A stretch of DNA of 64,000 nt from Massilia putida (GTDB taxonomy: Bacteria; Pseudomonadota; Gammaproteobacteria; Burkholderiales; Burkholderiaceae_D). Shown in pieces: positions 1,843 to 32,846 of this stretch. Under the pieces are notes generated by a model. That model saw only the letters and a program-made list of their open reading frames with translations, was not told the origin of the DNA and did no database searches. A program made the position numbers and the translations under genes. The stretch covers positions 6,200,001 through 6,264,000 of the forward strand of contig NZ_CP019038.1 of assembly GCF_001941825.1 (NCBI RefSeq). Reading direction: 5' to 3'. Within the stretch, counting starts at the first letter, position 1; each line of letters opens with the position of its first letter.

Positions 1843-2371
1843 TATTTATCTTTACTTTCGGTATGGATCAGTGAGCGTCCACGCTATTCGGAGCGGAACG
1901 CGAAATAGCAACGCGAGCCAACAATACGAAATGACTCTGAAACGAAAGAAATTTCGGCACAAAAGCTTTGCGCCGGGACGGTGCCTGTTTCGGCACGCAG
2001 GGCGGGAGGGCTTTATGAAAGGACATCCTTCGGACACGTCGAAAAAACCTACTGCGCGTTGCCGATTTCGTCTGCGATGCTCGCTGTACTCTTCGTACAG
2101 CTGCGCTTCTCAACGAAATCTGCTGCCGCTCGTGACGGTTTTTCGAAGCCCCACTTCTTGGATGCCTGGGCTTGCGTAGCTGGTTTTGTACTACTGTCGG
2201 TGAACTGCCGCCGCGGTCAATGCAAACGCGTTTATTGCAGCGCACAACCAACACTATACCGTACTTTTGAAAAGCGTGCACGGCACGCGTCAAGATGTGC
2301 GCGGACGGACGGGTTATAAACCCGTCGCGTGGTCTGAATGATACGAGGCGCCGGAGCGCCGGACCGCGCAA
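1843..2371 (-). other. 529-nt intergenic region, long leader of the helicase gene
   Basis: No convincing protein gene is present. On the minus strand, just after the mltD stop, is a palindrome GACGGGTTATAAACCCGTC at 2308-2326. A possible -10 box TATAGT lies at 2258-2253, without a good -35. Next comes the structured RNA element at 2146-2039, then about 200 nt with smaller dyads such as GTGCC/GGCAC before the helicase start. If transcription starts near 2246, the helicase mRNA has a leader of about 400 nt. The leader length is inference. Confidence 0.5.
2039..2146 (-). ncRNA. Conserved structured RNA element, copy A
   Basis: Read on the minus strand, three nested stems can form. P1 pairs TCGAAAAACC with GGTTTTTTCGA, P2 pairs ATTTCGT with ACGAAAT, and P3 pairs GCTGTAC with GTACAGC around a GAAGA loop. 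The strands between the stems read CGAGCGGCAGCAG, GAGAAGCGCA, GCATCGCAG and GCAACGCGCA. The same strands and the same stem layout occur at 32716-32828 with different stem sequences (see copy B). It lies between mltD and the helicase gene, in the direction of transcription. It could be a cis-acting leader element or a separate small RNA. I do not recognise the family. Confidence 0.65.
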
Positions 2372-32629: not shown

Positions 32630-32648
32630 GAGCAGGAGCAGTACCGAT

Positions 32649-32704
32649 AACCACAGAGTTCGCGCGGCAAGCGCTGTGCGACTCTGTGGTTTTCACTTTT
32701 TTTT
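32649..32704 (+). terminator. Intrinsic terminator after carB
   Basis: The 11-bp stem AACCACAGAGT (32649-32659) / ACTCTGTGGTT (32681-32691) is followed by TTCAC and then an eight-T run. It ends carAB about 20 nt after carB. The structured RNA and greA must therefore be transcribed from a new start or by read-through. Confidence 0.85.
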
Positions 32705-32715
32705 CGTACGCCAAA

Positions 32716-32828
32716 GGCCTCGTGCAACCGTAGCGAGCGGCAGCAGGGGTGGTCGAGAAGCGCAGCCGTACCGGCGTACGGCGCGCATCCAGGCCGCCCC
32801 TGCAACGCGCAACAGGTTGCGCGAGGCC
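32716..32828 (+). ncRNA. Conserved structured RNA element, copy B (greA leader)
   Basis: Three nested stems can form. P1 pairs GGCCTCGTGCAACC (32716-32729) with GGTTGCGCGAGGCC (32815-32828). P2 pairs GGGTGGT (32747-32753) with GCCGCCC. P3 is GCCGTAC-CGGC-GTACGGC. The joining strands CGAGCGGCAGCAG, GAGAAGCGCA, GCATC and GCAACGCGCA equal those of copy A at 2146-2039. The P1, P2 and P3 sequences differ between copies yet still pair. It lies between the carB terminator and the greA start, 18 nt from the ATG, so it is a leader element or a small RNA. I do not recognise the family. Confidence 0.7.
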
Positions 32829-32846
32829 TCACCACTACAGATAACC

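Follow-up and report, generated by a model that had tools for sequence, protein, structure and literature searches.

A covarying hairpin dispersed through Massilia and other Gammaproteobacteria is very probably a MITE-like mobile element

The Bordetella repeat BRE is 75–91 bp long, occurs in up to 29 copies, mostly intergenic and sometimes in tandem, and is found in several betaproteobacterial families (available portion of PMC3110155). MITEs such as ERIC and Correia are short, non-coding, intergenic and hairpin-forming, and carry direct repeats when young (as described in part of PMC10969869). REP and REPIN repeats, with their GTAG/CGTC palindromes and associated RAYT, are scattered intergenic palindromes that show stem variation (excerpts of PMC3733652). 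Among RNA families, Rfam sX9 (RF02228) ranks third among bacterial small RNAs by prevalence when all instances are counted (table seen in an extract of PMC9029176), and several sX9 genes lie within one Xanthomonas strain (portion of PMC10924375).

The locus described here belongs to a window, meaning the whole stretch of 64,000 nucleotides of the Massilia putida genome that was analysed, which holds two copies of a hairpin with three nested stems. The element resembles BRE in size class, dispersal, tandem copies and range, the comparison being with the description in the available portion of that source. It shares with MITEs the properties listed above, but its terminal inverted repeats vary between copies while their pairing is kept. 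It resembles REP and REPIN as a scattered intergenic palindrome with variable stems; it differs from them in being much larger, in having no tie to a RAYT and in its 4-bp duplication. Longer forms of the element carry the conserved core of the Massilia form and overlap sX9, although the sX9 model spans only half of the hairpin, on the opposite strand, and its Rfam structure differs from the fold of the element. Taken together, the element is very probably a non-autonomous, MITE-like mobile hairpin of about 122–124 bp (about 137 bp in the long form) with a shape-conserved core. In the open-licence literature, outside which most subscription papers fall, no published account was found of this family in Massilia or of the family as a covarying mobile hairpin.

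Structure of the two copies in the window

One copy sits between carB and greA (gene calls in the window). The second is flanked by genes resembling a DEAD-box helicase and murein transglycosylase D, labels that rest on scores under the curated cut-offs. The parts of the two copies are as follows.

32715..32829, plus strand: whole hairpin, greA copy (match of covariance model R1, 32717–32829)
32715..32729, plus strand: P1 5' arm, greA copy (partner 32815–32829)
32730..32742, plus strand: J1 joining strand GTAGCGAGCGGCA, greA copy, part of the conserved core
32743..32754, plus strand: P2 5' arm, greA copy (partner 32792–32803), in the most variable stem of the family
32755..32764, plus strand: J2 joining strand GAGAAGCGCA, greA copy, conserved core
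32765..32782, plus strand: P3 hairpin GCCGTAC-cggc-GTACGGC, greA copy
32783..32791, plus strand: J3 joining strand GCGCATCCA, greA copy (family form GAGCATCGCAG)
32792..32803, plus strand: P2 3' arm, greA copy
32804..32814, plus strand: J4 joining strand AACGCGCAACA, greA copy (family form CGCGCAGTAG), conserved core
32815..32829, plus strand: P1 3' arm, greA copy
2032..2153, minus strand: second copy, whole element, with ends fixed by the duplication (R1 match 2034–2149)
2028..2031, no strand: target-site duplication CTTC, one side (GAAG on the element strand)
2154..2157, no strand: target-site duplication CTTC, other side

Both elements, with the joining strands and stems quoted for them in the first-pass annotation, lie at the places given there. 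The stems themselves extend beyond the limits it had drawn, P1 to 32715–32729/32815–32829 and P2 to 12 bp in the greA copy. The second element, which it had placed at 2146–2039, is real and is better bounded as 2032–2153 (minus strand), where CTTC flanks it at either end. It had assigned no known family, in agreement with the Rfam scan, in which two tRNAs are the sole gathering-level matches in the window. The ORF lists of the window contain no frame of 80 or more amino acids wholly within the element, which was judged non-coding from its size as well.

Folding energies are −85.1 kcal/mol (z −8.75) for the greA copy and −44.7 kcal/mol (z −5.72) for the span 2146–2039 of the second copy; in each case 0 of 200 shuffles is as good. 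The strand assigned to each copy is somewhat more stable than its complement (−85.1 versus −78.1 for the greA copy, with ends one base apart, and −51.2 versus −46.5 for the second copy).

Copy number and distribution

Two instances of the paired blocks GAGCGGCAGCAG-N8-GAGAAGCGCAG are present in the window, and 100 dinucleotide shuffles contain none. The element had been described as a two-copy structure; by this motif there are exactly two in the window, but the 7.5-Mb genome has six exact copies. Covariance model R1, built from these six, gave 91 matches at E ≤ 1, of which 13 are opposite-strand duplicates, leaving 78 distinct places in the genome. This number may be a lower bound, as 150 of 5,657 first-look candidates were scored, and the weakest few of the 78 may be chance matches. 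Seventy places were taken for study and eight weak ones omitted.

The exact motif is present in 63 stretches of named genomes, including Massilia, Duganella, Pseudoduganella, Telluria and Roseomonas; R1 confirmed five of seven motif stretches tested, and did not confirm the Azonexus and Rhodocyclaceae bins. Scans of more than 40 genomes used strict filters and scored few candidates per genome, so that the counts are lower bounds. With this genome counted throughout, R1 matches at least 31 of 41 genomes of the genus and at least 56 of 116 of the family, and model R2, built from a cross-genus set, matches at least 77 of 300 genomes of the order and at least 32 of 369 of the class. Ten of the 41 Massilia genomes have no R1 match at E ≤ 1e-6. 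The family thus ranges over Burkholderiales and other Gammaproteobacteria, and the search by covariance model that had been proposed recovered many homologues. Beyond the order, most of the matches listed are longer forms of about 137 nt that contain an additional P3 module.

Inserted segments also occur within Massilia. Some copies share an extra module, CGGTCCGCCG...GCGG, between the 3' arm of P3 and J3, and others have inserts located 3' of J3, so that the family has modular subtypes (noted at L022, L023, L031, L033, L101, L112, L113 and L118).

Covariation and the conserved core

The Massilia alignment comprises 67 of the 70 copies, without L137–L139 and with opposite-strand duplicates removed. 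Paired cells make up 91.1%, compared with 81.8% after shuffling, and pairing drops to 30.2–37.8% when partners are slid by one to three columns. Both sides vary in 29 of 40 pairs, and on each of five covariation measures all 500 shuffles fall short of the alignment. P2 has 57 distinct 5' arms among the 67 copies. Mean pairwise identity is 0.59 for P2 and 0.71 for P1; for the unpaired columns, counted with the hairpin loop, it is 0.73, so that the joining strands of the Massilia copies are barely more alike than P1.

The cross-genus alignment has 40 copies: 31 from 23 genera, nearly all the best match of their genome (L330 and L331 were omitted), and nine from this genome, Massilia and named neighbours. 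Its stems differ widely, yet 93.8% of cells are paired and the covariation score is 0.634 versus 0.194 shuffled. Near-fixed across genera are CGTaGCGAGCGg, GAGaAGCGcA, the GTAC/GTAC core of P3, GAGCAtCGcAG and cGCGCAGtAG, and here the contrast in conservation between joining strands and stems is sharp. Both alignments were fitted to a structure-bearing model, which somewhat inflates pairing, and the shuffles leave relatedness in place; the pairing in the two sets nevertheless bears out the description of a structured, covarying element. One copy that also occurs in a relative (L017 and L249) has undergone an in-place double change in P2, from T-A to C-G.

Mismatch pairs were also counted without a model, in inner-stem arms located by conserved anchors, with the register picked by the number of Watson–Crick pairs. 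Among 69 distinct copies these arms have 40 G-T and one A-C. The cross-genus set has 70 G-T and 19 A-C, excluding one column in which G-U is the rule, and the Massilia set has 120 and 65. Counted by column the Massilia split is 15 to 13, which indicates no consistent G-T bias over all its stems. As the copies are related, none of these counts represents independent events.

Insertion sites and target-site duplication

Copies lie in both orientations amid unrelated genes. A crude codon-model gene caller gave two neighbours and no called overlap for 53 of the 70 copies, of which 22 are co-directional with both neighbours, 16 are opposite to both, nine lie between convergent genes and six between divergent genes. 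Replication-strand bias is absent, with 36 copies on the plus and 34 on the minus strand and no split by GC-skew half (skew computed from the fetched loci only). Tandem arrays of two or three copies, separated by roughly 6–18 bp, occur at G300:C9:133832-134192, G336:C1:551412-551655 and G040:C12:447396-447631.

Orthologous sites are mostly empty. Of 41 genomes searched for carB–greA, 30 loci were read: a full copy is present in three (this genome, G122 and G135) and a decayed piece in one (L199), the other 26 have nothing of it, and the element-free loci include relatives with 93–98% flank identity. For 16 other copies in five relatives, 69 of 80 combinations are an uninterrupted empty site, in which the joined flanks give a single alignment no longer than 159 bp, compared with the roughly 250 bp required of an occupied site. 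The remaining 11 comprise three split by about 100–110 bp, two split by 55 bp, and six that are half present, missing or on two contigs. In 30 empty-site alignments the insert measures 117–131 bp in 17; eight with no clear gap and five with a gap of 65–107 bp count against a mobile element. Three of 40 copies from seven relatives occupy a site in common with the 70 loci of this genome.

The exact ends come from another genus, g102, in which near-identical copies begin and end with GGGAACTTC...GAAGTTCCC and so define both the element ends and the offset of the duplication, which was picked after inspection of these copies. Copies near contig ends were skipped (20 of 22 used in g102, 17 of 18 in the order and class set, 47 in the YTAR set below). 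In g102, 15 of 20 copies have the same 4-mer on both flanks, against a mean of 1.8 and a maximum of 7 in 1,000 shuffles. At the g102-derived offset the two flanking 4-mers match in eight of 70 Massilia copies (shuffled mean 0.32, maximum 3), one being the second copy in the window, and in four of 40 in the cross-genus set (two from this genome) and two of 17 in the order and class set. No 5-mers are duplicated at this offset, in 0 of 20 and 0 of 70 copies, respectively. The 62 Massilia copies without a duplication at the set offset weigh against mobility, and comparison of the flanks finds none at the ends of the greA copy. With a free offset, duplications in g102 (16 of 20) exceed the shuffles (mean 7.6, maximum 13), and those in Massilia (26 of 70) lie within them (mean 19, maximum 33). 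An earlier reading of the Massilia empty sites, that target sites are not duplicated, was overturned by the young g102 copies. Among 47 copies from other genera, YTAR stands at one end in 12 and at the other in 14, versus 1–4 and 0–5 in outer control windows. A 4-bp duplication at YTAR is typical of some DDE transposases, as in the IS5 and IS701 groups.

Three narrower comparisons concern vehicles of the element. One exact pattern found no viral contig with the element, and one copy, L303, had no plasmid match; both are narrow tests. In G048 two copies lie 1.1 kb apart (L148); the gene between them is ribBA-like by eye and no transposase is present there, and for that pair a composite or autonomous element was rejected. 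The analysis turned up neither a transposase nor an autonomous partner for the element, which counts against a mobile element, as does the lack of sequence conservation in the terminal stems, a departure from the usual MITE.

A probable mobile hairpin and its likely relatives

The dispersal, the empty sites in relatives, and the exact ends and 4-bp target duplications of young copies together point to a mobile element. Its features are those of MITEs: inverted ends, as GGGAACTTC/GAAGTTCCC in g102 and as a paired outer stem in Massilia; a target-site duplication of fixed length in both groups; and sites that are empty in relatives at carB–greA and elsewhere. Such an element would insert mostly between genes, in either orientation, duplicating 4 bp of target. 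The fixed length of the duplication is the footprint expected of a staggered-cut transposase; a trans-acting DDE-type enzyme would make the 4-bp staggered cut, and we infer its DDE class from the 4-bp footprint alone. The transposase would accept the element largely by its fold, contacting the conserved joining strands and leaving the stems free to drift while pairing holds, and any influence on greA or another neighbour would be incidental to the landing site. A search for the mobilising enzyme could start from the near-identical copies of g102 and from the empty sites in Massilia. An exact match to a trivial mobile repeat, scattered at random and untranscribed, had been named in advance as one finding that would undo the first-pass annotation; the element is indeed scattered and very probably mobile, but its copies are not exact matches.

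The chances are even that the element is the BRE of Bordetella under another name, which is compatible with a mobile element and was judged from the description of BRE. The conserved inner part measures about 83 nt by our count, within the 75–91 bp given for BRE, and the tandem copies in G300, G336 and G040 have their counterpart in the tandem BREs (available portion of PMC3110155). Massilia and its family are, however, absent from Table 2 of that source. The lexA-side BRE locus was searched in 34 genomes, none identified as Bordetella, and the 30 lexA loci read yielded two element matches, a weak one of 32.9 bits (L352) and another of 16.3 bits.

The gathering score of sX9 is exceeded by three of seven long forms (L369, L370 and L371), with one more below threshold; the Massilia window, three Massilia loci and the other short forms scanned have no match. 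The long-form hairpin of about 137 nt that overlaps sX9 is recurrent within genomes, and the many sX9 instances and several genes per strain fit a repeat nature. These matches suggest that sX9, a highly prevalent small-RNA family, may be one half of a related transposable hairpin.

Proposed recognition by fold and alternative explanations

Palindromes are prone to template-switch repair. It is rather unlikely, though conceivable as a partial alternative, that the element is a mobile repeat whose pairing is kept by such repair and by the youth of its copies, and not by selection on the fold. Most copies are young by site comparison, and the outer stem of the Massilia set has no G-T excess (the 15 columns versus 13 over all stems). 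Against this, the joining strands are unpaired and yet conserved across genera, and the G-T to A-C ratios of 40 to 1 in inner stems and 70 to 19 across genera are not expected from strand-neutral repair.

Returning to a hairpin accepted by a transposase, variable self-complementary ends with conserved inner loops would point to recognition of a folded strand. In its fullest and less likely form, which we regard as doubtful, this would be SINE-like recognition by the shape of a folded, strand-specific intermediate (RNA or single-stranded DNA), with an enzyme that reads the conserved internal loops and makes a fixed 4-bp staggered cut. The reasons for considering it are the inner-stem G-T excess over A-C, the independence of the element from host-gene orientation and the lack of conservation of its terminal sequence. 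The family allows recognition by fold to be tested against recognition by sequence.

A host functional RNA (leader switch, thermosensor or small RNA), whose copies would act in trans or each on the adjacent gene, is improbable. Covariation is strong both in Massilia and across genera, the G-T excess over A-C in the inner stem is that of one folded strand, and longer relatives match sX9. The copies nevertheless have no tie to particular genes, are mostly missing at orthologous sites and lack an R1 match in ten Massilia genomes. The leader switch or thermosensor put forward earlier is contradicted by unrelated neighbours, both orientations, absence in relatives and target-site duplications. With a full copy in three of 30 carB–greA loci and 69 of 80 absences elsewhere, the element is not a control element of greA, and greA leader, thermosensor and riboswitch were rejected for want of a conserved association with greA. 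The accompanying idea of a small RNA draws on the sX9 matches and on a BRE-type Bordetella repeat that is transcribed and visible on Northern blots (available portion of PMC3110155), neither of which shows a function. Strong RNA-like covariation can thus mark a mobile repeat and not a gene-control RNA, a trap for covariation-based RNA discovery.

A REP/REPIN-type repeat moved by a RAYT (Y1 transposase) is extremely improbable: the copies are intergenic palindromes and this genome has two Y1_Tnp genes, but Y1_Tnp occurs in 41 of 41 genomes of the genus, including the ten without the element, 26 RAYT loci gave a best element match of 20.7 bits (E 0.015) and no flanking copies, the RAYT genes of this genome are bordered by different inverted repeats, and a fixed 4-bp duplication is atypical of the REP/RAYT class. 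On the Y1_Tnp distribution, the 26 loci and the RAYT flanks, RAYT was set aside as the mobiliser. At L140 the Y1-transposase gene has its own 31-nt inverted repeat (1320–1350 and 2113–2143), which contains GGGGTCAGAGCCCG and is unrelated to the element.

A conserved hairpin between carB and greA

A separate strong hairpin, AACCACAGAG...CTCTGTGGTT, with a T-rich stretch after it, lies at 32649–32691 of the window, between carB and greA; the region 32630–32712 folds at z −4.9. If a carB terminator or a greA leader is conserved here, this hairpin is a better candidate for it than the mobile element. It is present by eye in all 30 Massilia carB–greA loci, with or without the mobile element.
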